From an uncultured bacterium (lineage in GTDB: Bacteria > Edwardsbacteria > AC1 > EtOH8): a stretch of DNA of 39,171 bases. Every line of letters starts with the position of its first letter. Position 1 is the first letter of the stretch. The stretch covers positions 973,046-1,012,216 of the forward strand of contig CALMGM010000005.1 of the NCBI GenBank assembly GCA_937863685.1, written 5' to 3'. This document shows positions 22,828-36,519 of this stretch, piece by piece. Position numbers and translations under genes: made by a program. The notes beneath the pieces are model-generated. The model made no database searches. It was not told the DNA's origin and saw only the letters and a list, made by a program, of their open reading frames with translations.

Positions 22828-23820
22828 ATGCAGTTCAAACTGGATAAAAAACGATCCGACGCCCTGATCAACAGTTTCCGCCACAAGACCATCCTGGTGC
22901 TGGGCGACCTGATGCTGGACGAATATCTGTTCGGCCAGGTCAGCCGGATATCGCCCGAGGCCCCGGTGCCGGTGGTGGAGGTCAGCGAGGAGAAATATCT
23001 GCTGGGCGGCGCGGCCAACGTGGCCTGGAACATCGCCAGCCTGGGAGCCAAGGTAGTCCCGGTGGGGGTGGTCGGCCGGGACCGCCCACGCCAGACCATC
23101 TTGAAAGAGTTCCAGAAGCGGAAGATATCCAAAAGCGGGCTGGTGGAGGATCCCTCCCGCCACACCACCATCAAGACCAGGATCGTGGCCCATCACCAGC
23201 AGGTGGTGCGGGTGGACCGGGAGCACCGCCAGGACATCTCGCCGTCCTCGGAGGCCCGGGTCATCGCCCGGCTGAAAAAACTTGTTCCTGCGGCCGATGC
23301 GGTGCTGATAGAGGATTACAACAAGGGCCTGATAACCGGCAAGGTGCTCAAGGCCGCCCTGGAGCTGTGCCGCAGGCATAGGAAGATAGTCACGGTGGAT
23401 CCCAAGTTCAATCATTTCCTGGATTTCAAGGGGGTGACCCTGTTCAAGCCCAATGTGCTGGAGACCGAACGGGCCTTGGGGATCAAGATCGCCGGGCCTC
23501 AGGACATGCTGAAGGCCGGAAAAATGCTGATGGCCAGGCTCAAGACCAGTGCGGTGCTGATAACCGCCGGCGACCGGGGAATGTATCTGGTGACAGGTGG
23601 CAACAAGTCAGAGCACATCCCCACCATGGCCCGGGAGGTCTACGATGTCTCGGGGGCCGGTGACACGGTGATAGCGGTGCTGACGCTTTCATTGGCGGCC
23701 GGAGCCAGTTTCCTGGAGGCGGCCATCATAGCCAATCATGCGGCCGGGGTGGAGGTCTCCAAATTCGGGGTGGCGGCGGTCTCGGTGAACGAATTAAAGG
23801 AGGCGTTGAAGAGCTGGTAA
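22828..23820 (+). CDS. rfaE1: D-glycero-beta-D-manno-heptose-7-phosphate kinase
   Basis: A 330-residue PfkB-family sugar kinase of the RfaE1/HldE-N group, which phosphorylates heptose 7-phosphate at C1 in ADP-heptose synthesis for the LPS inner core. Visible features are VLGDLMLDEYLFGQVSRISP (24-43), GGAANVAWNIASLGA (60-74) and the ATP/anion-hole motif DVSGAGDTV with catalytic D279. It ends at the kinase domain: the C-terminal cytidylyltransferase of bifunctional HldE is absent, so rfaE2 must be elsewhere. The ATG has no Shine-Dalgarno. Its stop overlaps the waaA start by 1 nt (TAATG). The upstream TTGCGCAA element links its control to the exported-protein operon. Confidence 0.92.
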   Translation: MQFKLDKKRSDALINSFRHKTILVLGDLMLDEYLFGQVSRISPEAPVPVVEVSEEKYLLGGAANVAWNIASLGAKVVPVGVVGRDRPRQTILKEFQKRKISKSGLVEDPSRHTTIKTRIVAHHQQVVRVDREHRQDISPSSEARVIARLKKLVPAADAVLIEDYNKGLITGKVLKAALELCRRHRKIVTVDPKFNHFLDFKGVTLFKPNVLETERALGIKIAGPQDMLKAGKMLMARLKTSAVLITAGDRGMYLVTGGNKSEHIPTMAREVYDVSGAGDTVIAVLTLSLAAGASFLEAAIIANHAAGVEVSKFGVAAVSVNELKEALKSW

Positions 23821-25088
23821 TGCACCTTTTAACAGGGCTTATTTTATATAATATCGTATTAACGATGGCCTTCCTGCTGGGTTGGCCATATTTGTTGCTT
23901 GCCGGTTTTGTCCCGGGCAATAAAAAATGGCGCCAGAGATGCGGACTGGTTCCAAAAATACAGGGCAACCCCGTCTGGTTTCATGCCGCTTCCATGGGCG
24001 AAGCGGCGCTGGTCCCGCCCCTGATCGAAGCCCTGAATAAAAAGAACGCCGGTCATAAAACAGTGATCTCCACCATGACCCAGACCGGCCAGGACCGGTC
24101 CGCCAGGATCAACCAGGGAGCGGTCACTTTCTTCCTGCCTTTGGATTTCCTGTTTCCGGTATTTTTGTCGCTGGGCAGAATAAGGCCTTCGGCCCTGGTG
24201 CTGATGGAGACCGAACTGTGGCCCAACCTGATGTGGCTTTGTAATGTCCGGAAGATACCGGTGTTCATTGTCAATGCCCGTCTTTCGGACCGGTCTCTGC
24301 CATATTATCGTTTCTTCGGGTTCCTGTTCCGGCCCCTGCTGAACCGGGTGGAATGCATTGCCTGCCAGAGCATCCGGGACGCGGAAAGATACAAGTCATT
24401 GGGAGTTGCCCCCCAAAAAATAATCGATGCCGGGAACATCAAGTACGATACCATCAGCAAGCCGGTCAGCCGGGAGCAAAAAATGAAACTCAGGGAAGGT
24501 CTTGGTTTTTCCCCGGAGGATCTGATACTGGTGGCGGGCAGCACCAGGGAAGGCGAAGAGGAGATGATACTGGACGCCTGGGCCGGGCTGCCGGACAAGA
24601 TAAAATTGATAATAGCCCCCCGGCACCCGGAAAGGTTCCCCGTAGTGGAGCAGATCCTGTCCAGCCGGGGGCTGGCATTTTCTCGGCGCAGCAAGATACA
24701 GGGCCAAAAAAGATCCCAGAATATCCTGCTGCTCGACAGCATGGGGGAGCTGATAGACGCCTACGCGGCCGGCGACATCGCCTTTATCGGCGGCAGCCTG
24801 GTCCCGGTGGGCGGGCACAACCCCCTGGAGCCGGCGGCTCTGGGCCTGCCGGTCATCTTCGGACCACATATGTCCAACGCCCGGGAGAGCGCCCAAAGCT
24901 TGCTGACTGCCAAAGGGGCCCTGCAGGTCTCCGATGCCGGGGAGCTGCAAACGGCTCTTGAAAAGTTGACCGGCGACAGAGAATCGATCCGCCGCTTAGG
25001 GAACAATGCCCTGAGAGTAGTGGAGGAGAAGCGGGGCGCATCGGAAAAGATATCCCTGATCATTTTAAACTATATAAATAAGCCTTGA
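23820..25088 (+). CDS. waaA: 3-deoxy-D-manno-octulosonic acid transferase
   Basis: A 422-residue Kdo transferase (GT30) that attaches Kdo from CMP-Kdo to the lipid A precursor at the inner membrane. An N-terminal membrane anchor (about 4-30) is followed by a GT-B fold. FHAASMGEA holds the catalytic base E61; METELWPNLM (about 130), STREGEEE (about 240) and GGHNPLEPAALGLPVIFGPHM (about 321-341) are hallmark segments for CMP binding. Length is typical. It is coupled to rfaE1 by a 1-nt overlap. The promoter of the next gene overlaps its stop codon. Confidence 0.95.
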   Translation: MHLLTGLILYNIVLTMAFLLGWPYLLLAGFVPGNKKWRQRCGLVPKIQGNPVWFHAASMGEAALVPPLIEALNKKNAGHKTVISTMTQTGQDRSARINQGAVTFFLPLDFLFPVFLSLGRIRPSALVLMETELWPNLMWLCNVRKIPVFIVNARLSDRSLPYYRFFGFLFRPLLNRVECIACQSIRDAERYKSLGVAPQKIIDAGNIKYDTISKPVSREQKMKLREGLGFSPEDLILVAGSTREGEEEMILDAWAGLPDKIKLIIAPRHPERFPVVEQILSSRGLAFSRRSKIQGQKRSQNILLLDSMGELIDAYAAGDIAFIGGSLVPVGGHNPLEPAALGLPVIFGPHMSNARESAQSLLTAKGALQVSDAGELQTALEKLTGDRESIRRLGNNALRVVEEKRGASEKISLIILNYINKP

Positions 25089-25113
25089 AATCACTTCCCA
25101 AAAAATGTAAAAT
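25085..25113 (+). promoter_or_regulatory. Promoter of the HAMP receptor gene
   Basis: -35 TTGAAA (25085-25090, overlapping the waaA stop), 17-bp spacer, -10 TAAAAT (25108-25113). The predicted start near 25120 leaves a leader of about 29 nt ending in GAGGTGG before ATG 25149. Confidence 0.65.
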
Positions 25114-25148
25114 GTACAAATATCAGCATTATCAACCGAGGTGGCAAT

Positions 25149-25976
25149 ATGAAAAAAATCTTTCACAGTCTCAAGACCAAACTGACCCTGAGCTTTGTGC
25201 TGCTTATTTTACTGATATCGGGAATGGCATTCCTGTACACATTCAATGAGACCAAGAAGGCCCTCAAGGAACAGATGAGGACCGAACTGATGTCGGTGGC
25301 CTCGGCCATTGCGGTAAGCATCGACGGCGATGTTCACGCCAAGATCAAACCGGGCGACGAAGGGACCCCGGCCTTCAAGATCATCGGCCAGGCCCTGCTC
25401 AAGGTCCAAGAGGCCAACGACCACATCACCTATATCTACACCATGCGCAAGACCGAAGAGGGCGCGGTGTTCGTGGTGGACCCCGACGACGAGGAACCGG
25501 CCAAGATAGGCGAACTTTACGAGGAGACCAACGACGAGATGCTGGCCGGTTTTGAAAAACCCAGCGCCGACAACGAATATGTCACCGATCAGTGGGGGAC
25601 CTTCCTTTCGGGCTACGCCCCCATCCGGGATTCGCTGGGCAATTCGGTGGGGCTGGTGGGAGTGGACATGAGCAGCAAGGATGTGATCGCCAAGCAGAGG
25701 TTCATAGGCAACACCATCTACCTGATCATCGGCATTGCGGTGTTGTTCGCCGGAATCATCATCCTGCTGTTCTCGGGGACCATCATCAAGGACGTCAACC
25801 GCCTCAACCGGATCGCCAATAAGATCAGCATGGGCGACATGGAGGTGAAGATGGACGTCAGGCGTCATGACGAGATCGGCGACCTGGCGGATTCCTTCGG
25901 ACGGATGGTGGCCAGCCTGAAGATCATGATGATGGAGCATAAGGAAACCGAAGGCAAACAGGAGCAGGAGAAATGA
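25149..25976 (+). CDS. Cache-HAMP membrane receptor without an output domain
   Basis: A 275-residue membrane protein: transmembrane helix 1 (about 12-32), an extracytoplasmic Cache/PDC-like sensor domain (about 33-188, with YIYTMRKTEEGAVFVVD and WGTFLSGYAPIRDSLGNSVGLVGVDMS), helix 2 (about 189-210), then a HAMP domain (about 208-261, with MGDMEVKMDVRRHDEIGDLADSFGRM). After HAMP only a short charged tail remains: no kinase, cyclase, phosphatase or methyl-accepting domain follows. Full-length receptors of this kind end in an output domain, so it must act through a partner or is a truncated derivative. The next gene overlaps or abuts its stop and could be that partner. It has its own promoter and a GAGG ribosome site. 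Confidence 0.85.
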   Translation: MKKIFHSLKTKLTLSFVLLILLISGMAFLYTFNETKKALKEQMRTELMSVASAIAVSIDGDVHAKIKPGDEGTPAFKIIGQALLKVQEANDHITYIYTMRKTEEGAVFVVDPDDEEPAKIGELYEETNDEMLAGFEKPSADNEYVTDQWGTFLSGYAPIRDSLGNSVGLVGVDMSSKDVIAKQRFIGNTIYLIIGIAVLFAGIIILLFSGTIIKDVNRLNRIANKISMGDMEVKMDVRRHDEIGDLADSFGRMVASLKIMMMEHKETEGKQEQEK

Positions 25977-25978
25977 CC

Positions 25979-26209
25979 ATGACCGATCTTGCCCAGAAAG
26001 TATTGAGTATTTCAACTGCCTATCTGGGCCCGGCGGCCAAGATGTTTCTGGCCAGGCAGACGAAATACCATCTACAGGGGCTGGAGTATGAGCAGCTGCA
26101 GAAAGAGCATCTGTCCGAATTGTCGAAATGGCTTTTCATCTCCGGATCCCTGGTGATAGAGAAGGACAAGGCCCAGGAGCTGTCGCAGCTGGTGGCCAAG
26201 CTGGTCTGA
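25979..26209 (+). CDS. Small helical protein co-translated with the HAMP receptor
   Basis: A 76-residue protein from ATG 25979, chosen because AGGAG (25966-25970) is 8 nt upstream; an ATG at 25973, overlapping the receptor stop, is only 2 nt from that site. It is predicted all alpha, with a YLGPAAKMFLARQ helix and a second amphipathic helix HLSELSKWLFISGSL. The first part vaguely resembles short helical modules (GPIA-x-x-L-x-R type) found at the ends of some bacterial signalling proteins, but I cannot name a family firmly. No signal peptide or membrane segment is present, so it would face the cytoplasmic HAMP domain. A terminator closes this two-gene unit. Confidence 0.65.
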   Translation: MTDLAQKVLSISTAYLGPAAKMFLARQTKYHLQGLEYEQLQKEHLSELSKWLFISGSLVIEKDKAQELSQLVAKLV

Positions 26210-26236
26210 TGCCTTCGGTCTTCCGGCTCATCCTAA

Positions 26237-26270
26237 AAAATGCCGCCCCATGAACGGGCGGCATTTTGCA
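26237..26270 (+). terminator. Terminator after the HAMP receptor unit
   Basis: A perfect 12-bp stem (26237-26248 with 26256-26267) with a 7-nt loop, ending in TTTT. It separates the receptor unit from lpxK, so lpxK needs its own promoter. Confidence 0.9.
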
Positions 26271-26278
26271 TAAAATTG

Positions 26279-26307
26279 TTGTAATTTCATCCCGGATGGG
26301 TTATCCT
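26279..26307 (+). promoter_or_regulatory. Possible promoter of lpxK-nadA
   Basis: -35 TTGTAA (26279-26284), 17-bp spacer, -10 TATCCT (26302-26307), then 9 nt to ATG 26317. Both hexamers match the consensus at 4 of 6 positions. Its position right after a terminator makes it credible. Confidence 0.4.
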
Positions 26308-26316
26308 AATGGCATC

Positions 26317-27387
26317 ATGAAAATATCGGCATCTGAAATAACATTCGTCCTGTTGTTTTGGCCGTTCTCCCTCCTGTACTTTTTCATCTATCAACTGAGG
26401 AGAATGGGATACCGGATGGGACTTTTCAGGACCCATAAAAGCCGGCTTCCGGTGATCTGCGTTGGAAACCTTACCACCGGAGGCACCGGCAAGAGTCCTT
26501 TCTGCATGATGCTGGCCGGGGAACTGTCAGCGGCGGGCTTCAAGCCGGCCATTCTGTCCCGGGGCTATAGGAGATCTGCCGGGAAAGGATCGAAAATCCT
26601 GGCTGTCAGCGACTGGGAAAAGCTCCTGTCCGGCCCCGCCCAGTCTGGCGATGAGCCATTCTTGATGGCTCGGAAGCTGTTGGGCCGGGCCATCGTTATT
26701 GTAGGGAAAAGGCGAGATCGGGCCTCGGAACTTGCGGAAACGGCCGGGGCCGATGTGATTATCATGGACGACGGCTTTCAGCACTGGCGTATGGCCCGGG
26801 ACCTGGATATCGTTCTGCTGGACGGCAAGCGGCCGCTGGGCAACGGCTGGCTGCTGCCGGCCGGGCGCCTGCGGGAGCCGGTCTCCGCCCTGAAGCGGGC
26901 CGGCGTCATCATCGCCACCAGATGCGGTGACGGCACCGGCTGTCAGCCCATAGAAAGGATGGGGAAAGCATATCGTCTGATCCAGCCAGTCTTTTATTGC
27001 GGCCATCGGGTTGTTAAATTAAAATCGCTGGATGATCAATCAGCAAATCAAACCATCAAACTGACCGCTGACAGCAAACTGCTTTTATTCTCCGGCATCG
27101 CCCGGCCGGATTCATTCCGAAACAGCGTCAAGGAGCTGGGGTACGAAATCTCGGATCATATCGTCTTCGGCGACCATCATTCCTATGATCGGGCCGACCT
27201 GGAAAGGATCGCCCGGGCAGCCGGCGGCTGCGAGGCCGTGATCACTACCCAGAAGGACGCAGTAAAGCTGCCGGTGGGATGGAGTCCGGGGAAACCGCTC
27301 TTGGCGCTGGAGATAGAGATCTCCTTTAGGCCGGAGACAGGGAAAGAAGAATTACTTGAAATCATAAAAGGGGCGTTAAAGCCATGA
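26317..27387 (+). CDS. lpxK: Tetraacyldisaccharide 4'-kinase LpxK
   Basis: About 356 residues from ATG 26317. The frame opens at a TTG (26266) inside the upstream terminator, which is implausible, and the ATG at 26296 is a less likely alternative. LpxK phosphorylates the 4' position of the tetraacyl-disaccharide to make lipid IVA. An N-terminal membrane anchor (about 8-26) precedes the P-loop GNLTTGGTGKSP (50-61). The catalytic region MDDGFQHWRMARDLDIVLLDG and LLPAGRLREPVSAL are typical. The C-terminal HHSYDRADLERI and TTQKDAVKL segments complete the family pattern. No Shine-Dalgarno is visible. It overlaps nadA by 4 nt. Confidence 0.93.
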   Translation: MKISASEITFVLLFWPFSLLYFFIYQLRRMGYRMGLFRTHKSRLPVICVGNLTTGGTGKSPFCMMLAGELSAAGFKPAILSRGYRRSAGKGSKILAVSDWEKLLSGPAQSGDEPFLMARKLLGRAIVIVGKRRDRASELAETAGADVIIMDDGFQHWRMARDLDIVLLDGKRPLGNGWLLPAGRLREPVSALKRAGVIIATRCGDGTGCQPIERMGKAYRLIQPVFYCGHRVVKLKSLDDQSANQTIKLTADSKLLLFSGIARPDSFRNSVKELGYEISDHIVFGDHHSYDRADLERIARAAGGCEAVITTQKDAVKLPVGWSPGKPLLALEIEISFRPETGKEELLEIIKGALKP

Positions 27388-28337
27388 CCCTGGAAGAATA
27401 TCAGAGATTATCCGACGACGAGTTGTATAAAAAAATATCCCGTCTTAAAGAAGAGCGGGACGCGGTCTTTCTGGTGCACAACTACCAGGTGCTGCCGGTC
27501 CAAAGGCTGGCCGATTTCATCGGCGACTCCTTGGCCCTGGCCCAGGCGGCGGTAAAGGTCAAGGCCAAAACCATCATCTTTTGCGGGGTGCACTTCATGG
27601 CCGAGAGCGCCAAACTGCTCAACCCCGAAAAAACCGTCCTACTGCCGGACACTGGCGCCGGATGCCCCATGGCCGATATGGTCACGCCGGAGGCATTGCG
27701 CCAGGCCAGGGAAAAATATAACAACCCGATCGTGGTCACCTACGTTAACAGCTCGGCGGCGGTCAAGGCCGAGAGCGACATCTGCTGCACCTCGTCCAAT
27801 GCGGTGGAAATAATCAACTCGCTTCCGGCGGACAGGGAGATCCTGTTCGTGCCGGATAAAAATTTGGGATCTTACGTTGCCAAAAAGACCGGACGAAAGC
27901 TGATCCTGTGGCCGGGCTATTGCTACGTACACAACCGTTTCACGGTCCAGGATATCTTAAGTGCCAGAGAAGAACATCCCGGGGCCACCATCATCGTCCA
28001 TCCGGAATGTCCGCCGGAGGTGATCGAGCGGGCCGACATGGCGACCTCCACCTCGGGCATGGTGCAGGCGGTAAAGGAACATCCGGAGGTCGAGGAGTGG
28101 GTGATCGGGACCGAGCAGGGATTGGTGGATCAATTGTCGGCCACCTACCCCCAGAAGGGCATATATCCCTTGGCGAACAGCGCGATATGCCGGAACATGA
28201 AGATGATCACCCTGGCCAAGGCGGCCTGGGCTTTGGAGAATCAGAAATATGAGATCATGGTTCCGGACCAGGTGGCTACAAAGGCCAGACTGGCGCTGGA
28301 GCGGATGCTGGAAGTTTCGAGAAGAGCTCTCCTATAA
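27384..28337 (+). CDS. nadA: Quinolinate synthase NadA
   Basis: A 317-residue NadA, the [4Fe-4S] enzyme that condenses iminoaspartate with dihydroxyacetone phosphate to quinolinate in NAD synthesis. The three cluster cysteines are C94 (GAGCPMAD), C209 (HPECPPEV) and C269 (AICRNMKM). Substrate-binding segments VHNYQ (31-35), GDSLALAQAA (47-56) and TYVNSSAAVKAESDICCTSSNA (119-140) are intact. The size fits the shorter NadA form without the long C-terminal extension of E. coli NadA. Its ATG overlaps the lpxK stop by 4 nt, so NAD and lipid A genes are co-translated by location rather than pathway. Confidence 0.96.
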   Translation: MTLEEYQRLSDDELYKKISRLKEERDAVFLVHNYQVLPVQRLADFIGDSLALAQAAVKVKAKTIIFCGVHFMAESAKLLNPEKTVLLPDTGAGCPMADMVTPEALRQAREKYNNPIVVTYVNSSAAVKAESDICCTSSNAVEIINSLPADREILFVPDKNLGSYVAKKTGRKLILWPGYCYVHNRFTVQDILSAREEHPGATIIVHPECPPEVIERADMATSTSGMVQAVKEHPEVEEWVIGTEQGLVDQLSATYPQKGIYPLANSAICRNMKMITLAKAAWALENQKYEIMVPDQVATKARLALERMLEVSRRALL

Positions 28338-28391: not shown

Positions 28392-28420
28392 TTGACGAAA
28401 CCATTGGTTTGTGATATCTT
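28392..28420 (+). promoter_or_regulatory. Promoter of the Cys-motif/TPR operon
   Basis: -35 TTGACG (28392-28397), 17-bp spacer, extended -10 TGATATCTT (TG at 28412-28413, hexamer 28415-28420). AGGAG (28437-28441) then lies 6 nt before ATG 28448. Confidence 0.7.
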
Positions 28421-28447: not shown

Positions 28448-29950
28448 ATGAATAAATGCCCCTTTCTGTCAGCTCATAAAATCATTAAAGAAATTCGGTA
28501 TGATGCCGAGGGGAAGATAACCGAGGAGAAGGAAACTCCCCAGGTGGAACTCAAGGACTGCCTTGAAGCCCAGTGCGAGATCTTCGACAGCACGTCCGGC
28601 AAATGCTCCCTGCCGACCATTGACAGCAAGATCCAGCCGGCGGGCGGAGGTTCTTCCGGCAACGAGGAACAACTTGCAGTACTCAAATCCATTCTGGCCG
28701 AGGCCAAGGAGACACGGGAGAATACCGCCGCTTCACAGCTGCATGTGCTGAAAAGGGCCGAGGCTGCAAACGAGCTGCTTCACGGCTTGAAGGAAAAAAT
28801 GTCCTCGTTCGGAGGGGTGGACCTGGGGCCGGTGCAGAGCAGCCTGGCCGATCTGAGATCTTCGCTGGACCAGAACCAGACAAAGTTCACCGATATCCTG
28901 GAGCTGATACTGGAGGACCAGCAGAACCGGGCCGCCCAGGGGGGGCTCAAGGAAAATCTGTCCCCGCTGCTGCAGAATATGGCCGAGATCAAAGAGGGTC
29001 TTTCTGCCAGCCGGGCCAAATTCACCGACATCATGGAACTGATGCTGGCGGAACAGCAGAAGCGGTCTTCGGAAGGCGGCCTGAAGGAGAACCTGTCACC
29101 GCTGTTGCAGAGCGTTTCCGATATCAAGGAAGCTTTGGTGCTTAACCAGAACAAGTTCGGCGATATCCTGGAGCTGATACTGGAGGACCAGCAGAACCGG
29201 GCCGCCCAAAACGGCCGGGAGATCGAACTGCTGGCCGAGATATCCCAAAAGCAGGAGAGAATGGTCGAGGCCCTGGGCAAGGGCCTGAATGCCGACAGCT
29301 TAAATGAGGGCCTGGCCAAGATGATGGACAAGTCCGGCGAATACTTGAAATCTTTGAGCGAAGCCGACGCGGTCAGGCAGTCCCGCCTGGAGGAGATGGA
29401 GAAACAGCTGATCAAGCTGCAGCAGACCATGCAGGAGCTTTTAGAGGGCCAGCGCAACGAACAGCGGGACGTCAGCAACGAAAGAAGGCGGCAGCGGGCC
29501 AACGAGTATAACGACCGGGGGGTGATGCTGTTCCACCGCCGGGAGCTGGCGGCGGCCGAGGTCGAGTTCCGCAGGGCCCTGGACGTCCGGCCGGATTTTG
29601 CCGAGGCCTACAACAATCTGGGGCTGACCCTGAGCGATCTGGGCAAAAAGGAGGAATCGGTGGAGGCCTTTAAAAAGGCCATAGACCTGTCGCCCGACGC
29701 CCCGGAGGCCTACAACAACCTGGGCTGCCTGTACCGGATCAAGAAGGACTACCAGCAGGCGGTGGAACTGTTCAACCAGGCCATCGCCAAGCGGGAGGAC
29801 TATTCCCTGGCCTATTTCAATCTGGGTGTGGCCTACGAGGAGTTGGAGAAGTTCGAACTGGCCATCAAGGCCTGGGAGAAGGTGCTCAACCTGCAGCCCA
29901 CCCACGAGGAGGCCCGGAGAAAACTGGCCTCCTACCGGGCCCGGAGGTAG
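28448..29950 (+). CDS. Cys-motif, tandem-repeat coiled coil and TPR protein
   Basis: A 500-residue cytoplasmic protein with three parts. Residues 1-55 carry four cysteines (C4, C38, C43, C53) in the pattern NKCPFL...DCLEAQC...GKC, suggesting a small zinc or Fe-S site. Residues 75-345 are a long helical, probably coiled-coil region with three 45-residue tandem repeats (132-176, 177-221, 222-266), each built on KFTDILELILEDQQNRAA. Residues 352-490 hold about four TPR units (AYNNLGLTLSDLGKKEESVEAFKKAIDLSP type). No signal peptide or membrane helix is present. The layout suggests a scaffold that oligomerises through the coil and binds partners with the TPRs. The disordered gene 29957-30427 follows with its ribosome site inside this gene's end. 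I recognise no named family. Confidence 0.75.
   Translation: MNKCPFLSAHKIIKEIRYDAEGKITEEKETPQVELKDCLEAQCEIFDSTSGKCSLPTIDSKIQPAGGGSSGNEEQLAVLKSILAEAKETRENTAASQLHVLKRAEAANELLHGLKEKMSSFGGVDLGPVQSSLADLRSSLDQNQTKFTDILELILEDQQNRAAQGGLKENLSPLLQNMAEIKEGLSASRAKFTDIMELMLAEQQKRSSEGGLKENLSPLLQSVSDIKEALVLNQNKFGDILELILEDQQNRAAQNGREIELLAEISQKQERMVEALGKGLNADSLNEGLAKMMDKSGEYLKSLSEADAVRQSRLEEMEKQLIKLQQTMQELLEGQRNEQRDVSNERRRQRANEYNDRGVMLFHRRELAAAEVEFRRALDVRPDFAEAYNNLGLTLSDLGKKEESVEAFKKAIDLSPDAPEAYNNLGCLYRIKKDYQQAVELFNQAIAKREDYSLAYFNLGVAYEELEKFELAIKAWEKVLNLQPTHEEARRKLASYRARR
28841..29245 (+). repeat. Three 135-bp tandem repeats within the TPR gene
   Basis: Units at 28841-28975, 28976-29110 and 29111-29245. The 48 nt at 28891-28938 and 29161-29208 are identical and exactly two units (270 bp) apart, while the middle unit has diverged. 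This implies recent duplication or gene conversion. Confidence 0.8.
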
Positions 29951-29956
29951 CTTTTG

Positions 29957-30427
29957 ATGGACGAAGCCCTGCACAAAATAGAGAAGATACTGGCCGAACA
30001 GCGGCAGCCCTCCCGGATAGATCCCATCCTGCCCAGGAAGACCGCCGTCCCCAAGACCGATGCGGCCATTGACATCGCCCATTACGGCAAGGTCTCAGCC
30101 GGAGAACAGCCGCCGGTGCCGGTCAAGGGAGAAATGATGGTTGAAAAGCCGGCTCCCAAGCCGAAGCCCGAGTACGTGGATCCGGCGGCCAAGATCGGGG
30201 TGGGCGCCAGGGAGTTCAATCTGGAAGAGCTGTCATCCGAGGCCATGGGCGGAGATGTCGATTCCGAAGTGGCTTCCAAGATCGGCACCGGAGGACGGGT
30301 GTTCAAACTGGACGATCTGGGGGCAGAGAATGCGAACTACGATCCGCTGATGGGCAACATGCTAAAACCATCCAACAGCCGGGAACTGAGCCTGGACGAG
30401 CTGTCCTCGGAGTCCGACGAAAAATAA
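29957..30427 (+). CDS. Disordered protein with a triplicated LEELSSE-type motif
   Basis: A 156-residue protein. The ATG at 29957 is preceded by GGAGG (29943-29947) at 9 nt, inside the last codons of the TPR gene, so translation is coupled. A short N-terminal helix (MDEALHKIEKILAEQ) is followed by Pro/Lys/Glu-rich, low-complexity sequence predicted to be disordered. One motif occurs three times: REFNLEELSSE (85-95), RVFKLDDLGAE (114-124) and RELSLDELSSE (142-152); the first two are preceded by A-[AS]-KIG-x-G. Such repeated short amphipathic motifs usually bind a partner domain; the TPRs encoded just upstream are the obvious candidate. No known family is recognised. Confidence 0.7.
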   Translation: MDEALHKIEKILAEQRQPSRIDPILPRKTAVPKTDAAIDIAHYGKVSAGEQPPVPVKGEMMVEKPAPKPKPEYVDPAAKIGVGAREFNLEELSSEAMGGDVDSEVASKIGTGGRVFKLDDLGAENANYDPLMGNMLKPSNSRELSLDELSSESDEK

Positions 30428-30440
30428 TTATGATAAACCA

Positions 30441-30471
30441 AAGCCCCTCCTTTCGGAGGGGCTTCTTTATT
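30441..30471 (+). terminator. Terminator after the TPR operon (probably bidirectional)
   Basis: A 10-bp stem AAGCCCCTCC / GGAGGGGCTT (30441-30450, 30455-30464), TTTC loop, followed by CTTTATT. It sits between two convergent genes (30427 on plus, 30482 on minus). Confidence 0.85.
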
Positions 30472-30481
30472 ATCGAACAAC

Positions 30482-31840
30482 CTATTGCTTTTCTATCTTC
30501 AAGCCGGGGATATCCAGTCTGGTCTGAGTGGTGTCGGTGACCATCGCCAGCAGGAAATTGTCCGGCTTCAGGTATTTTATGGCGGCGGCCATCACGTCAT
30601 CCTTGGTCACGGCCAGGGTCTTCTCCATGTCCTGCCGGAAATAATCCCGGCCCAGTCCGTAGAGCTCGACATACAAGAACTGTCTGGCGGTCTGGCCGTT
30701 GGTCTCGAAGCGGAAAGGATAGCTGCCCCGGATGTAATCCTTGGCCTCCTTAAGTTCCTCGTCGCTGACCGGCTCCTGCTGGATCCGTCTCATTTCCGCG
30801 ATCAGGCTCTTGACGGCGGTGTCGGCCGAGGCGCATTTGGTCTGCACCGAAAGGGCATATGGGCCGAAATCGGTCCGGGGATCGTAATTGGAATCCACAT
30901 CATAGGCCAGGCCCTGGATCATCCGGATATTCTTGACCAGCCGGGAAACGAAGCCGCCGCCGCCCAGAATGTAATTCATCACCCGGATGGCCTGGTAACC
31001 GGGGTCGTTCCTTTTGGGTCCCAGAAAGCCCAGATTGATGTAAGCCTGGTTGATCTGGCGGTTTATCAGCAAAGCCCTGGGCTGTCCGATGGCCGGGATC
31101 TCCGGAAGGATCAATTTGGGAATATTCCGGGAGGGCCAATTCTCTAAATTCTGTTCCAGTATTTTCTTGATCTGGGAACTTTTAAAATCTCCCACCACTG
31201 CGATGATGCAGTTGTTGGGAGCGTAGTGTCTCTGATGGTGCCCGGCCAGATCCTGCCGGGATATGCGGGAGACGCTTTCGGCGTCGCCCATCTCGGGATG
31301 GGCGTAGGGGTGCAGCCCGTAAAGCATCCGGTTCAGGGCCTCGTCCGACTGGGTGTTGGGCCGGTCTCCCTTGGCCTCGATGGCCGAGAGCAATTCCGCT
31401 TTCAGCCTTCCGGTCTCCAGGGAGTCAAAAGCCGGTTTGGTCAGCAGGTCGAACAAAACCGGCACGGTCCGGTTGAAATCTTTCGCCAGGGCGGTCAAAG
31501 AGATGAATACCGCGTCGTAGTCGCATTTGACCGAGAACTGGGCTCCCACAAAATCGAAATTATCGGCGATATCAAACGCACTGCGGGAAAAGGTTCCCTT
31601 GGCCAGCATCTCGGTAGTAAAGTTGGCCAGACCGGCATACCCAGCCGGATCGGTGATGCTCCCGGCCTTGATCATGACATCCACCGACACCACCGGTAAT
31701 TGATGATTTTCCAAAAGCAAAACGGTCAAGCCGTTCTTGAGAACGATTTTTTTGGGCTGGGGAGGGGTCCAGATATTTTGGGCGGCCGCCAGGACGGTCA
31801 TGGATAAAAGCAATGCCAGGCTGAAAGCAGTCTTTCTCAT
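30482..31840 (-). CDS. M16-family peptidase subunit lacking the zinc motif
   Basis: A 452-residue exported protein (signal peptide about 1-20, ending AAAQ) with two M16 (insulinase/MPP-like) halves. At the position of HxxEH it has ANFTTEMLAKG (N73 to E77), so both zinc histidines are lost and it cannot be the catalytic subunit. The C-terminal half keeps the arginine/tyrosine-rich pattern (YPFRFETNGQTARQFLYVELYGLG) that completes the active site in M16B heterodimers such as the mitochondrial processing peptidase alpha/beta pair. It overlaps the active M16 gene by 4 nt, so a heterodimer in the periplasm is inferred. Confidence 0.9.
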   Translation of the reverse strand: MRKTAFSLALLLSMTVLAAAQNIWTPPQPKKIVLKNGLTVLLLENHQLPVVSVDVMIKAGSITDPAGYAGLANFTTEMLAKGTFSRSAFDIADNFDFVGAQFSVKCDYDAVFISLTALAKDFNRTVPVLFDLLTKPAFDSLETGRLKAELLSAIEAKGDRPNTQSDEALNRMLYGLHPYAHPEMGDAESVSRISRQDLAGHHQRHYAPNNCIIAVVGDFKSSQIKKILEQNLENWPSRNIPKLILPEIPAIGQPRALLINRQINQAYINLGFLGPKRNDPGYQAIRVMNYILGGGGFVSRLVKNIRMIQGLAYDVDSNYDPRTDFGPYALSVQTKCASADTAVKSLIAEMRRIQQEPVSDEELKEAKDYIRGSYPFRFETNGQTARQFLYVELYGLGRDYFRQDMEKTLAVTKDDVMAAAIKYLKPDNFLLAMVTDTTQTRLDIPGLKIEKQ

Positions 31841-33171
31841 CGGACCTCTCCTTTACTTTGGGGTTCGTTGGCGGGAACCAGGGTGGCCACGGTCTTGTTC
31901 TGGTCGATGAAATATTTATTGGCCACGCAGATTAAATCCTGGTTGGTCACCGACCTGATATTCTTGAGATAGCTGTTGAGATAGCGCCAGTCAAGTCTGG
32001 TCTGGGCCGAGCCTATCTGAACGGCCAGTCCGTTGTTCCGCTGCTGCTGGAAGACGAATTCGGCTTCCAGCTGGTTCTGGCTCTTCTGCAGCTCCCTCTG
32101 GGTAACGCCCTGCTTTTTGATCTTTTCCAGCTCCCCGGCTATGGCCTGCTCCAGTTCTTCCGTATTATGGCCCTTGAGCGGCGCCGAGTAAAAGATGAAA
32201 AGGGTTGGGTCGGTCTGGGTGTCGTTATATCCGCCGGCGAACAGGGCCAGCTGCTTTTCGTAGACCAGGCTGCGGTAGAGCCGGGAGCTCTCGCCGTTGC
32301 TGAGGATGTTGGAGAGCAATTCCAGGGGGTAGGTGTCCGGTTGGCCAATTTCAGGCGTATGATAGGCTATGGCCACCAGCGGCATCCTGGTATCCTTCAT
32401 GACTTTGATCCGGCGCTCTCCCGTTTGGGGAGGTTCCACGGTGGTGACCTTGGGGGGCTTCCTGACTCCGGCCGGGATCTTTTCGAAGTATCTGGCCACC
32501 ATGGCCAGGGCATCCTTTCTTTTGACATCGCCCACGATCACACAGGTGGCATTGTTGGGGGCGTAATAGGTACGGTAATAATCGCGCAGATCCTGATTGG
32601 TGACCGACTCCAGGTCGGTCATCCAGCCCAGTATCGGCCAGCCGTAGGGATGGGCGGTATAGGCGGCGGCATTCATCTCTTCGAACAGCCGGCCGTAAGG
32701 GGAGTTCTCCCTGAGGCGGCGCTCCTCCTTGACCACGTTGCGCTCCGGATCGAATTCTTTGGGATCCAGCTTCAGGTTGGCCATCCGGTCCGACTCCAGC
32801 TCCATGGCCACCGACAGGAACTCGGTGGAGATGTTCTCGTAATAGGCGGTGTAGTCTTCGCTGGTGAAGGCATTGCTGTGGCCGCCGTATTTCTGGACGA
32901 TCTTGGAGAATTCCTCGGGGCCGGTCTTGTCCGTTCCCTTGAACATCATATGTTCCAGCAGGTGGGAGATCCCGGTGATGCCGGGACGCTCGTTGCGGGA
33001 GCCCACCCGGTACCATACCTGGAAACTGACCAGGGGCAGGCCGGGCTTCTCCACGGTCAGAACTTTTAGGCCGTTGGCCAGGCTGTCCTGATAGACCGCC
33101 AAGGTGTCGGCGGCCCCGGCCCCGGAAACGGTCAGTATCAGGCAGGATGCCGTCAGAATCAATTTTTTCAT
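31837..33171 (-). CDS. M16-family zinc peptidase, catalytic subunit
   Basis: About 444 residues from the ATG at 33171 (MKKLIL), chosen because AAAGGATG lies 8 nt upstream; an ATG at 33183 lies directly on that site. A signal peptide (about 1-20) marks export. The inverted zinc motif is HLLEH (H70, E73, H74), and RNVVKEERRLRENSPYGR supplies the third ligand E149/E150. GGHSNAFTSEDYTAYY (96-111) is typical. The peptidase probably clears peptides in the periplasm. It starts 15 nt after the pspC stop and overlaps its inactive partner by 4 nt, forming pspC-pspC-M16-M16. Confidence 0.92.
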   Translation of the reverse strand: MKKLILTASCLILTVSGAGAADTLAVYQDSLANGLKVLTVEKPGLPLVSFQVWYRVGSRNERPGITGISHLLEHMMFKGTDKTGPEEFSKIVQKYGGHSNAFTSEDYTAYYENISTEFLSVAMELESDRMANLKLDPKEFDPERNVVKEERRLRENSPYGRLFEEMNAAAYTAHPYGWPILGWMTDLESVTNQDLRDYYRTYYAPNNATCVIVGDVKRKDALAMVARYFEKIPAGVRKPPKVTTVEPPQTGERRIKVMKDTRMPLVAIAYHTPEIGQPDTYPLELLSNILSNGESSRLYRSLVYEKQLALFAGGYNDTQTDPTLFIFYSAPLKGHNTEELEQAIAGELEKIKKQGVTQRELQKSQNQLEAEFVFQQQRNNGLAVQIGSAQTRLDWRYLNSYLKNIRSVTNQDLICVANKYFIDQNKTVATLVPANEPQSKGEVR

Positions 33172-33186
33172 GCTTTTTACCATCCT

Positions 33187-33588
33187 TTATTTATTATCCT
33201 TGATCAGCAGCCTGACACCGATGGCGATCAGGATCAGCGGCCAGACCAGGCTGAATTTGAAATGGAACAGGCCGTAATTATGCAATAAAATACCGATCCC
33301 CAGGATGATGACCAGTATCCCGAACACCGCGCCGGACGGATCGCGTTTCATGGCCGGATTCCTTTCTTCGGTATTTGACGGAGTTTCGTCTTGGCCCGAG
33401 GAACGGGTTTGCCGGGGAATGATCAACCAGGCCGCCAGGTACAGCATGATCCCCAGCCCGCCGGCCAGGGCCAGTATTATAAAGATGATGCGGGCCAGGA
33501 GCGGATCGATGTCAAAATAATCTGCCAGGCCCCCGCAGACCCCGGCCACCATCCGACCCTTATCGGAGAGATACAAACTTTTGGGCAT
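33187..33588 (-). CDS. PspC-domain protein with C-terminal membrane domain
   Basis: A 133-residue membrane protein. The PspC domain (about 1-58: YLSDKGRMVAGVCGGLADYFDIDPLLARIIFIILAL...YLAAWLIIP) is followed by a charged linker and a second pair of helices (GAVFGILVIILGIGILL, SLVWPLILIAIGVRLLI) like the LiaF/DUF5668 N-terminal segment. PspC proteins take part in envelope-stress sensing. It directly follows another, shorter PspC gene; its ATG has no Shine-Dalgarno and lies 9 nt after that stop, so translation is likely coupled. Confidence 0.88.
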   Translation of the reverse strand: MPKSLYLSDKGRMVAGVCGGLADYFDIDPLLARIIFIILALAGGLGIMLYLAAWLIIPRQTRSSGQDETPSNTEERNPAMKRDPSGAVFGILVIILGIGILLHNYGLFHFKFSLVWPLILIAIGVRLLIKDNK

Positions 33589-33597
33589 TTATTTCAC

Positions 33598-33789
33598 TTA
33601 CAAAACAGCCGGTTGGTCGGGGATGATGATCCAGGCGATTATGTAGGCCAGTATCCCGGCTCCGGACAGGGCAAATACCACCGCCACCAGCCGGACGATA
33701 GTGGGATCGACGTCAAAATATTCTCCCAGACCCCCGCAGACGCCGCCCAACATCCGGTCCCTGGACGAACGGTAAATTCTTTTAGCCAT
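33598..33789 (-). CDS. Small PspC-domain protein
   Basis: 63 residues, almost entirely one PspC domain ([37 protein letters not shown]...[10 protein letters not shown]) with two membrane helices. It heads the pspC-pspC-M16-M16 operon. A strong AGGAGAAGG ribosome site precedes the ATG, and a well-formed promoter with an upstream palindrome lies in the short gap before it. The two tandem PspC copies differ clearly in sequence, so duplication is not recent. Confidence 0.9.
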
Positions 33790-33817
33790 GGTCCTTCTCC
33801 TAACTATTGACTATACA

Positions 33818-33846
33818 ATTATAAACCCCAAAAGGCAAAACTTCAA
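33818..33846 (-). promoter_or_regulatory. Promoter of the pspC-M16 operon
   Basis: On the minus strand: -35 TTGAAG (33841-33846), 17-bp spacer, consensus -10 TATAAT (33818-33823). The leader is about 20 nt and contains AGGAGAAGG. Confidence 0.75.
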
Positions 33847-33851
33847 GGGCA

Positions 33852-33865
33852 GATAAGATCTTATC
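33852..33865. promoter_or_regulatory. Perfect 14-bp palindrome upstream of the pspC promoter
   Basis: GATAAGATCTTATC is perfectly self-complementary. Its centre lies about 47 bp upstream of the predicted transcription start, just outside the -35, where an activator dimer would bind. A weak hairpin-only role is possible. Confidence 0.5.
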
Positions 33866-33876
33866 CGTGATTTGTA

Positions 33877-33912
33877 AAACGGCCTTGAGGGGCACTGACC
33901 CCAAGGCCGTTT
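33877..33912 (-). terminator. Terminator of the sigma-anti-sigma-bactofilin operon
   Basis: AAACGGCCTTG...CAAGGCCGTTT-type stem (outer 10 bp perfect, GGGG/CCCC inside one bulge), followed on the minus strand by TTTTACAAAT. It lies 21 nt after the bactofilin-like gene's stop. Confidence 0.75.
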
Positions 33913-33932
33913 ACATTCCAAAGATTTATTTT

Positions 33933-35186
33933 TTAATCGGTCGCTGCCGTCTTCTGCGCTTTGGGCTGTCTGGGCGGGGCTTGATCCCTAGTCCCCAGTC
34001 GGGTGGTCCATACCGCGCCCATGCCCACGGTCACCCCGCACCACAGGACAATAAAGTTGATGATGAAGAATATCACGCCCAAAGCGCTCAGCGGGCTGCC
34101 GGCGATATTGATCAGGCTGCCCAGCAGGAACAGGGAGTGGAGCAGCACAAAGCCCAGCACCACCGCCGGCAGGGTGTTCATGGGCGGCTTATTGAAGGCG
34201 TGCAGGAATTTCTGGTTGATGATCACCCCGAAGCTGGCGATGCTCATCAGGATTCCGGCCACCACCAGCAGGACCGCCAGCGGTATCAGGGGGATGCCCA
34301 GGATGGAGACCGCCATGAATACCAGGGCCGGGGCCAGGGATATCTGCACCAGGAATCCGATGCCGGCCGACTTCCAGAAATCGGTCTCGATTATATGGGT
34401 AATGCGCTCGATGGGCCTGGAGAAGAACACTCCCAGCAACGTCACCAAAATGCCCAGCCCGGCCAGCATGAAGAAGGTGATGAAAAATTTTATGGCCCGT
34501 CCGGCGGCCGGTTTTTTGTGGGTAATGTGAGCCGTGCCGATCAAGCTGGGAATGAACTGGTTAAGCATTCCTAAATCCACGTTCTTTATCTCCCCGCTGA
34601 CCTGGGCGCCATCGGCCCTATCCACCTGGCCGCCTACTATGGCAATATCGCCGCCCACCGAGGAAGTCGGCCCCAGCCTGACCATCCCGCCGAAGGATGC
34701 CAGCTCGCCGCCCACCGTTCCGTCTATGGAGACCGGGCCGCCGAAGGTGGCCACATCGCCCTTGACCGTCCCGGAGACTGTGGTGCCCCCGCCGAAAGTG
34801 GCCACGTCGTGCATTACCGTGCCGTTGACCGTCACGCCGCCGCCGAATGTCACGCAGTCGCCGTTGACCATGCCGTCCACGGTGATCGAGCCGCCCTTGG
34901 TGACCACATCATCGTTAATGGTATCGGCCGGGCCGACGTAGATATCACCCACCTTGGCATCCTTGGCGTCGATCTGAACTTCTTTGTCGCCGATCTTGAA
35001 CTTGTAAGTGGTGTCGGAATCACCTTCGCCGATCCCCTGGATTCTGATGGTGGTCTTCTTGTCCAGCAGCTTGGTCCCCACCACTTTTTCCTCGGCCAGA
35101 CCGGTAGTTACCGCCGCAACCAGGGCGATCACCGTCAGCAGGACAAGCCAGCCGGGCTTTGAGGTATGCCTGTTTAATTTGAACAT
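33933..35186 (-). CDS. Bactofilin-like beta-solenoid membrane protein
   Basis: A 417-residue protein. Residues 1-31 are a signal peptide or anchor. Residues 35-92 form a small domain. Residues about 97-200 are a right-handed solenoid with 17-residue rungs (FGGGVTVNGTVMHDVAT, FGGGTTVSGTVKGDVAT, FGGPVSIDGTVGGELAS), as in bactofilin (polymer-forming cytoskeletal, DUF583) proteins. Residues 230-395 contain four or five membrane helices. Bactofilins polymerise as envelope-associated scaffolds; here the solenoid would face outside the cytoplasm if the signal is cleaved, which is unlike classical bactofilins. An AAAGGAG site supports the ATG. It is the third gene of the ECF sigma operon, hence a likely target of that regulator. 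Confidence 0.82.
   Translation of the reverse strand: MFKLNRHTSKPGWLVLLTVIALVAAVTTGLAEEKVVGTKLLDKKTTIRIQGIGEGDSDTTYKFKIGDKEVQIDAKDAKVGDIYVGPADTINDDVVTKGGSITVDGMVNGDCVTFGGGVTVNGTVMHDVATFGGGTTVSGTVKGDVATFGGPVSIDGTVGGELASFGGMVRLGPTSSVGGDIAIVGGQVDRADGAQVSGEIKNVDLGMLNQFIPSLIGTAHITHKKPAAGRAIKFFITFFMLAGLGILVTLLGVFFSRPIERITHIIETDFWKSAGIGFLVQISLAPALVFMAVSILGIPLIPLAVLLVVAGILMSIASFGVIINQKFLHAFNKPPMNTLPAVVLGFVLLHSLFLLGSLINIAGSPLSALGVIFFIINFIVLWCGVTVGMGAVWTTRLGTRDQAPPRQPKAQKTAATD
34587..34898 (-). repeat. 51-bp repeats encoding solenoid rungs
   Basis: About six imperfect units of 51-54 bp in the bactofilin-like gene, corresponding to residues 97-200. They are coding repeats of the beta-solenoid, not an independent element. 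Confidence 0.7.
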
Positions 35187-35206
35187 GATCGTGCTCCTTT
35201 CGGGAA

Positions 35207-35779
35207 TTATATTTTTGAATTTATATAAATTCTTTTGGAGGTGACGGCGATGATGGCAAAGGCCGCGATGCTGGCGATGGCTATTTGAGCCGGCAGATTC
35301 GATCCTTTAAGCAGGGTGACGGCCACCTGTCCCAGCAGGTCCATCATATCGGCCAGCCGCAGCCCGGCCTTGACCATGATCACCTGCAGGTTGGGCAATG
35401 CCTTTACAAAACCCTTGGCCAGGGAGAATGTTTTGAAAGGATCCAGCTTGTTCAGACCGAAAGTCAATCCCAGGCCGAATATCACCAGCCACAGGGAGCT
35501 AACCGATACCACGGCTCCGGTGGCCCATTTGATCAACGGGTTTAAATGCGGTGCCTTATATTCCAACCCCAGGGCATTGAAAATGCTGGCATTGAACTCG
35601 GGGCCGACATTGGGCAGCGGCATGGTTTTGACCGATTCGGCCACCAAATTGAGCAAGCGGTAGTCGGCAGCGCAGGAACGACAGATCCTCAGGTGGGTCT
35701 TGACTGTTATAACCTCCTGGTTTTCAAGGGAATTGTCTATCAGCTCCTGAAGCCTGTTTTTTATCTCTTTGCATTCCAT
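35207..35779 (-). CDS. Anti-sigma factor with zinc-finger domain (zf-HC2)
   Basis: A 190-residue membrane protein. The N-terminal zf-HC2/ASD motif is visible as C3, H29-x3-C33-x2-C36 (HLRICRSC). Two hydrophobic segments follow (about 85-108 and 163-182). The cytoplasmic zinc domain would hold the adjacent ECF sigma factor inactive at the membrane; the region between the helices may sense the signal. It begins 81 nt after the sigma stop, with GGAG 8 nt before the ATG, and is followed 20 nt later by the bactofilin-like gene. Confidence 0.88.
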   Translation of the reverse strand: MECKEIKNRLQELIDNSLENQEVITVKTHLRICRSCAADYRLLNLVAESVKTMPLPNVGPEFNASIFNALGLEYKAPHLNPLIKWATGAVVSVSSLWLVIFGLGLTFGLNKLDPFKTFSLAKGFVKALPNLQVIMVKAGLRLADMMDLLGQVAVTLLKGSNLPAQIAIASIAAFAIIAVTSKRIYINSKI

Positions 35780-35860
35780 GATATTTTCTCCGTTCTGGTA
35801 GTAATACGATCAAGTGCGGGCAAATGTTTCATTCTATCCAAGGTATTTGATGATAATGGG

Positions 35861-36421
35861 TTATCCATAGCCCAATTTGAACAGTTTTTGTTTCATTATA
35901 TCCCTGGCCCTAAAGAGCCGGACCTTGACCGTGCCCACCGGGATATCCAGCGACTGCGATATCTCCTCGTAAGAAAGCTCCTGCTGGTGCCTTAAAATCA
36001 GTACTTCGCGGTAGAGGGGCGGCAGGGTGCCCAGCACCTTGTCAATCAGTTCCTGCTGGGAGGCGGCTTCGATCTTTTCCTCCAGGGATATCTGGGTGTC
36101 CTCGATATCCACCGGGTTTTCCTCGTCGTGGATGGAGAGCGAGTCGGGTTTCTGGGCCCGCAGGAAATCGATGGCCGAGTTGTGGGCGATCTTGAACAGC
36201 CAGGTAAGAAAAGGATAGGACGGGTCGTAGCTGGCGAAGCTTTTATAGGCCTTGATAAAGGTCTCTTGGGCGATATCCTCGGCATCGCTCTGGTTGTGGA
36301 CCAGGCGGAAAATGAGGGCGAACACCTGCCGTTTATAGCGGTTGATCAGATCGTTGAAGGCCCGGCTGTCGCCGGCCAGACAGCGGTCTATCAGTATCTG
36401 GTCTTGGTTTTCGGAAGCCAT
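35861..36421 (-). CDS. ECF (RpoE-type) RNA polymerase sigma factor
   Basis: About 186 residues from ATG 36421 (MASENQDQILIDRCLAG). The open frame runs to 36499, but the first 26 codons overlap a promoter and operator and do not fit the family. Region 2 is DLINRYKRQVFALIFRL and DAEDIAQETFIKAYKSF; region 4 is LPPLYREVLILRHQQELSYEEISQSLDIPVGTVKVRLFRAR. Spacing is that of group 4 sigma factors. The gene heads the sigma-anti-sigma-bactofilin operon. The -10 of its promoter ends 6 nt before the ATG and there is no Shine-Dalgarno, so the mRNA should be leaderless. The promoter is sigma70-like, not an ECF-type promoter, so simple autoactivation is not indicated. Confidence 0.93.
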   Translation of the reverse strand: MASENQDQILIDRCLAGDSRAFNDLINRYKRQVFALIFRLVHNQSDAEDIAQETFIKAYKSFASYDPSYPFLTWLFKIAHNSAIDFLRAQKPDSLSIHDEENPVDIEDTQISLEEKIEAASQQELIDKVLGTLPPLYREVLILRHQQELSYEEISQSLDIPVGTVKVRLFRARDIMKQKLFKLGYG

Positions 36422-36427
36422 GGAGTT

Positions 36428-36460
36428 AGTATAGCATTTAGATTTGACCGGTGTCAAATC
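36428..36460 (-). promoter_or_regulatory. Sigma-factor promoter with an operator-like inverted repeat
   Basis: Minus strand: -35 TTGACA (36452-36457), 18-bp spacer, -10 TATACT (36428-36433), then AACTCC and ATG. A perfect 8-bp inverted repeat with a 4-nt centre, GATTTGACACCGGTCAAATC (36441-36460), covers the -35, where a bound protein would block RNA polymerase. Confidence 0.7.
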
Positions 36461-36489
36461 CAAAATATGTCCTGTTATTGCGGCGGCTT

Positions 36490-36519
36490 TTGAAGGCATG
36501 ATGCGTAAGAATGTATTAT
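36490..36519 (+). promoter_or_regulatory. Possible plus-strand promoter into the structured gap
   Basis: -35 TTGAAG (36490-36495), 18-bp spacer, -10 TATTAT (36514-36519). It points into 36530-36850, where no convincing gene is present. It could serve an untranslated RNA or be fortuitous in AT-rich DNA. Confidence 0.35.

Follow-up and report, generated by a model that had tools for sequence, protein, structure and literature searches.

The described systems that come closest to the locus presented here are TPR proteins of several kinds: (i) LapB (YciM), an FtsH adaptor made of TPRs and a rubredoxin-type metal knuckle; (ii) MamA, the TPR scaffold of the magnetosome (NF040959; PDB 3vty), whose TPR domain oligomerises; (iii) eukaryotic TPR adaptors of the Hop/OGT type, in which a TPR superhelix is able to hold extended peptides; and (iv) PEP-CTERM PrsT (TIGR02917), a giant TPR protein. 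In Hop, a co-chaperone of Hsp70/Hsp90, the carboxylate clamp is formed by K5 and N9 in TPR1, N6 in TPR2, and K2 and R6 in TPR3.

The DNA under study (from now on, the window) is a stretch of 39,171 nucleotides from an uncultured member of the Edwardsbacteria. It contains two adjoining genes on the forward strand, A and B, which the original prediction presented as a possible module of two genes that it could place in no known family. Indeed, no curated family contains either protein: beyond generic TPR, neither A nor B fits a sequence family of Pfam, NCBIfam, PADLOC or PDB. Residues 1-61 of A had no Pfam or NCBIfam family at E<=1 and, by profile search, no PDB chain at E<=10, and B gave no confident match against Pfam, NCBIfam or PDB. 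PADLOC indicated no defence family (the third protein considered below, T, had only a weak generic TPR match), and no description of the A-B pair was found in the literature.

Gene A (28448..29950), defined by its open reading frame, its homologues and its dN/dS values, encodes a protein of 500 aa with the three parts that had been predicted for it. The N-terminal Cys4 knuckle (residues 1-58; 28448..28621), a putative metal site, bears its four cysteines at the residues claimed, i.e. C4, C38, C43 and C53 (codons 28457-28459, 28559-28561, 28574-28576 and 28604-28606); a hairpin (3-18/24-37) is predicted here with block pLDDT values of 55-78, C4 and C38 lying at its two ends. The coiled-coil region (residues 73-345; 28664..29482), which appears in the AlphaFold model as helices at low pLDDT, includes a 135-nt (45-aa) unit present in three in-register copies that start at 28874, 29009 and 29144 (cores 28874-28938, 29009-29073 and 29144-29208), the other two copies sharing 74% and 94% identity with the reference copy. 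Tandem Repeats Finder did not report these units, though a separate repeat search found them. Finally, the four-TPR domain (residues 352-499; 29501..29944) is recognised by a family-specific TPR profile and by Pfam TPR_1, the latter in four stretches over residues ~352-499 (E=1.6e-31, 107 bits vs a gathering threshold of 27.8), and its blocks (351-490) are modelled at a mean pLDDT of ~96-97. Upstream of A lies a promoter-like site, TTGACG-17-TATCTT (28392..28420, forward strand); two such sites, both of them consensus matches only, were found before A vs 0.8 expected by chance.

Gene B (29957..30427, forward strand) encodes an acidic protein of 156 aa, supported by homologues, modelling and dN/dS. 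As anticipated, its ribosome-binding site is located within the end of A: a GGAGG (29943..29947) in the last codons of A, 9 nt ahead of the ATG of B. Homologues begin at the ATG at 29957 (MDEAL...), which makes the TTG at 29954 an improbable start for B. The claim that B is disordered agrees with its model (mean pLDDT 61, pTM 0.16), in which an N-terminal helix (residues 2-14, MDEALxxI...; 29960..29998) is the only ordered element. Residues M1, D2, E3, A4, L5, I8 and L12 are invariant in the family, as are I40, H42 and K45 of a conserved I-x-H-x2-K element (IDIAHYGK, residues 38-45; 30068..30091). The C-terminal half of B carries a motif with the consensus K-I-x2-G-x-R-x-F-x-L-D-E-L, of which there are two good copies, KIGVGAREFNLEEL (residues 79-92; 30191..30232) and KIGTGGRVFKLDDL (residues 108-121; 30278..30319), both detected by repeat search and shuffle test, and a diverged one, LKPSNSRELSLDEL (residues 136-149; 30362..30403), detected by the shuffle test, which retains only R-x-(L/F)-x-L-D-E-L. 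The internal repeat score of B (53) exceeds those of all 500 shuffles (maximum 51), and motif columns are 83% conserved vs 56% for the linkers. Hence, the predicted motif is conserved and repeated above chance, but its description as triple does not extend to the family: B has two or three copies among the Edwardsbacteria and a single one in G111, a genome of another phylum. Among four congeneric species, A has a dN/dS of 0.06-0.12 and B one of 0.08-0.15; both reading frames behave as real genes under purifying selection. A terminator-like hairpin after B (30441..30464), common to the convergent M16 gene, has a stem of 10 pairs (11 if read on the opposite strand) and, after it, a T-rich tail.

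Within the Edwardsbacteria, A and B were both found, adjoining, in 10 of 10 genomes, B lying 1-6 nt after A. Neighbourhood in relatives, a check that had been proposed for the pair, thus gave a positive outcome in these ten genomes and in G111. The four cysteines of A, whose variation would have counted against the prediction, are unchanged in all ten. Coil units in A vary from two to five, their number shows no visible correlation with that of the motif copies in B, and the unit was not recognised in other families. In one genome (G006), A has lost a segment the size of one TPR repeat. In another (G001), two coil units of A (L042) are identical in protein sequence, which suggests a recent tandem duplication. 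A search of the window genome with full-length A returned 48 matches, nearly all of them TPR; informative queries are therefore confined to residues 1-340 or the Cys4 profile. A single-sequence scan of genome contigs matched only a MAG of the same genus, Candidatus Edwardsbacteria isolate DeMMO3_1.

For the remaining lineages, 386 genomes were searched with two separate profiles, one for the Cys4 region (A1) and one for B (A2). Matches outside the Edwardsbacteria were weak; three of them proved real on reading, namely Cys4-coil-TPR proteins in G114 and G113, and B in G111. A sharper Cys4 profile added G368 and then three more genomes of its phylum. In total, A-family proteins were found in seven further GTDB families, amounting to 21 sequences with the Edwardsbacteria included: 20 full ones (seven GTDB families) plus that of G186, truncated by its contig end. 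They share the signature C-P-[FLI]-x(10-31)-C-x4-C-x9-C at the N-terminus, then a coil, then C-terminal TPRs, and the window A fits it. Over the 20 full sequences, the distance from the first cysteine to the second varies and the C-x4-C-x9-C spacing is exact in every case (C-x3-C-x9-C in G186); this spacing is fixed despite an overall identity of 20-30%. On the evidence of profile scores, the TPRs of A are a distinct subfamily: those of the other families score 97-145 bits against a profile built from Edwardsbacteria only, whereas no single match of an unrelated TPR protein exceeds 73 bits, although the many repeats of one long repetitive TPR protein add up to a higher sum. Other candidates were rejected: an EgtB-like protein (L062) matched the A1 and A4 profiles weakly and by chance; L061, L075, L089, L092, L094, L097 and L098 were chance matches, read-through or antisense; and L074 was a weak chance match of B. 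No plasmid in the plasmid search carries A.

Apart from B, A has a partner that the original prediction missed and that is more constant. This partner, T, is an all-TPR protein of ~1250-1310 aa encoded outside the window, and it was found in every A-containing genome tested for it. T (1264-1295 aa) lies directly upstream of A in G111 and in four of four A-positive genomes of the G368 phylum, and an alignment of the T proteins of G111 and G368 spans the greater part of both (E=1e-39, 962 columns). The same arrangement occurs in five GTDB families, i.e. f103 (G111), f93 (the four G368-phylum genomes), f116 (G124 and G261), f258 (G388) and f31 (G186); in G186, the stop of T and the start of A overlap as ATGA, A being the copy cut by the contig end. 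In the Edwardsbacteria, G113 and G114, T is not adjacent to A. A T profile based on G111 and G368 recovered one near-full-length T in five of five Edwardsbacteria tested (E ~1e-115 to 1e-119), that of the window genome lying ~136 kb from A (C5:1138075-1141626). G114 was also positive with the T profile from other phyla, and G113 with a wider profile. Four A-negative genomes of the G368 phylum were all T-negative.

The wider T profile, run over the 386 genomes, gave 16 at E<=1e-25, of which the eleven with an open frame of 1248-1313 aa were counted as T-positive and the other five (longer or shorter TPR frames) were left out. A is present in 10 of these eleven. All six genomes that are A-positive by the Cys4 profile fall among them, and A genes missed by that profile came to light as the next gene after T in G124, G261 and G388 and, in the truncated form described above, in G186. 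In the eleventh genome, G250, T is present and no recognisable A was found. A membrane protein with a double zinc ribbon and Yip1 (L132 10853-12001) follows T there in place of A; one metal-knuckle partner may have replaced another. Since part of the T profile derives from loci next to A, the independent evidence for the A-T association comes from the Edwardsbacteria, G114 and G113, where the genes are not adjacent, and from the joint absence of both in four G368-phylum genomes. In consequence, the idea of a two-gene module stands in that the A-B pair is kept, and falls short in that it overlooked T and in that several lineages showed no B next to A.

Regarding B outside the Edwardsbacteria, the G111 protein was found by the B profile alone and is encoded 5 nt downstream of a Cys4-coil-TPR gene, which independently confirms the A-B pair. 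It scores above 1000 of 1000 shuffles against the B profile, and its I-x-H-x2-K element appears as DITHYGR. In the G368 phylum, an acidic ORF of 106-109 aa occupies the position of B, 3 nt after A; three of these ORFs end in a similar FAEL(D/E)(D/E)V. They do not exceed shuffles against the B profile, and hence they are counted as positional analogues only and not as homologues. Where some gene occupies the B position (15 genomes), 1-6 nt separate it from A, and in the other families read no B-like gene was found beside A. By homology, B is proven in the Edwardsbacteria and in one other phylum (G111) only.

The neighbours of A and T point to no single process. An era/ybeY cluster (both genes named by reading their sequence) accompanies the A locus in G124, G261 and G388, where a gene for a ClpA-like ATPase of 726-730 aa (L133, L134 and L137) directly follows A; the G261 protein is similar to ClpA over nearly its full length and far below the ClpA cut-off. 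In G114, hpf-hprK-ptsH-like genes (also named by reading) lie beside T. Upstream of A in the window (22828-28337, forward strand) are genes for a PfkB kinase, a Kdo transferase, a HAMP protein, LpxK and NadA, which suggest a host with an LPS-type outer membrane. Convergent to A-B are two M16 peptidase genes (30482-33183, reverse strand), one with HxxEH and one without, as would suit an active/inactive-type pair; such a convergent pair also lies downstream of A-B in G006, G008 and G009, and in G111 after a receptor gene. Beyond it (33187-36499, reverse strand), a possible envelope-stress cluster comprises genes for a PspC/LiaF-like membrane protein, a protein of 417 aa that matches nothing in Pfam, a zf-HC2 protein (anti-sigma-type) and an ECF-type sigma factor.

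The best explanation, to which we assign a probability of roughly 0.5, is that A (with B) and T constitute an undescribed cytosolic scaffold, in which B would act as a motif-bearing ligand in some lineages. The near-constant company of T makes it probable that A belongs to an intracellular scaffold not described before; the scaffold is likely to be cytosolic, since no segment of A, B or T reaches typical transmembrane hydropathy (the highest 19-residue mean is 1.55, in T). The core of the scaffold would be formed by A and the giant TPR solenoid T. From the fixed spacing of the cysteines it is argued that A has a single metal site: metal binding is likely, the metal would more probably be zinc than an Fe-S cluster, and the knuckle may form a small docking module. 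The variable length of the coil argues for an oligomerising spacer that would also set the reach of A. Partner peptides would be bound by the four-TPR groove of A and by the solenoid of T; physical contact between A and T is given even odds. B, translationally coupled and disordered, would serve in the Edwardsbacteria and at least one other phylum as an assembly linker or a tethered ligand, offering A or T one to three F-x-L-D-[ED]-L motifs; its contact with A is put forward tentatively, at less than even odds. A more ambitious version, in which metal-capped rods of coiled coil and TPR dock with a giant TPR solenoid (and with B in some lineages) to make up an unrecognised intracellular machine, inherited across several uncultured phyla and important enough to have a place in the era/ybeY housekeeping cluster of some of them, is doubtful. 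Against the scaffold count the unlinked T of the Edwardsbacteria, G113 and G114, the T of G250 with no recognisable A, the families in which no B was found beside A, the G368-phylum ORFs that resemble B in position only, the independence of motif number and coil unit number, and the low to moderate confidence at which coil and Cys4 are modelled.

Other readings have to be weighed against the scaffold. A and B could be an ordinary lineage-specific pair, that is to say, a generic TPR protein and an unrelated acidic protein kept together by operon inertia. The abundance of TPR proteins in the window genome and the loci where A stands without B fit such a view, which is nevertheless unlikely given the subfamily signature of A, its linkage to T across families, the coupling of A and B retained in a second phylum, and the constraint on B. 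Alternatively, A might serve in proteolysis or as a chaperone adaptor in the manner of LapB or the Clp adaptors: Cys4 and coil would attach it to an AAA+ enzyme, substrates would gather in the TPR groove, and B would be a regulator or a substrate. TPRs plus a four-cysteine metal site are the ground plan of LapB, A is immediately preceded by the lpxK-nadA pair in Edwardsbacteria genera g1 and g3, and three genomes have the ClpA/ClpB-like ATPase gene right after A. Yet this Clp neighbour is confined to one gene-order group, and A departs from LapB in several respects (see below), which makes an adaptor of this sort quite unlikely. The four invariant cysteines, with their fixed spacing and non-zinc-ribbon geometry, could also belong to a sensor of redox state, oxygen or metal, in which loss of a labile Fe-S cluster or of zinc would alter the coil and be relayed through TPR, T or B. 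However, A has no consistent link to an output domain, a regulator or a redox gene, and we know of no Fe-S motif with the C-x4-C-x9-C spacing; a sensor thus appears decidedly improbable.

TPR scaffolds are common; the A family can nonetheless be defined by its Cys4 signature, its own TPR subfamily and a genome-linked T whose length is near-constant from phylum to phylum. The signature gives annotators a naming rule for proteins now called only "TPR repeat protein", the A-T association provides poorly studied phyla with a concrete, testable candidate complex, and the B of the Edwardsbacteria offers a short-motif ligand with a directly testable candidate binding site.

As for the known systems, MamA, LapB, PilW, PrsT and others match via their TPRs only and far under the curated cut-offs. 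MamA is the best NCBIfam match of A (97.3 bits vs an equivalog cut-off of 200; Foldseek TM 0.78 to the target), but it has neither Cys4, long coil, T nor B. LapB shares with A the joining of a TPR array to a four-cysteine metal-type module, as well as LPS genes near A in two genera; in A, however, the cysteine site is N-terminal and of the C-x4-C-x9-C type instead of the rubredoxin CxxC...CxxC, the coil is long, there is no N-terminal TM helix (the maximum 19-residue hydropathy of the window A is 0.52), and the NCBIfam scores are 33.6 bits vs 363 for the A of the L133 locus and 16.5 vs 474 for that of the window. Eukaryotic adaptors of the Hop/OGT type match in fold (Foldseek 5a01, 4gyw and others), but by eye A lacks the clamp residues of Hop at the corresponding positions (N5/V9 in TPR1, E2/N6 in TPR3); an F-x-L-D-E-L ligand, if bound by the TPRs of A, would hence use another mode. 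PrsT, the best NCBIfam match of T (112 bits vs a cut-off of 312), is likewise a giant TPR protein, but T has no clear membrane anchor and belongs with A. Since known families match via TPR only, Cys4 is unmatched, B has no confident match, and no paper on the pair was found, the A-based module, judged by its sequences, is a new and definable form of TPR scaffold.
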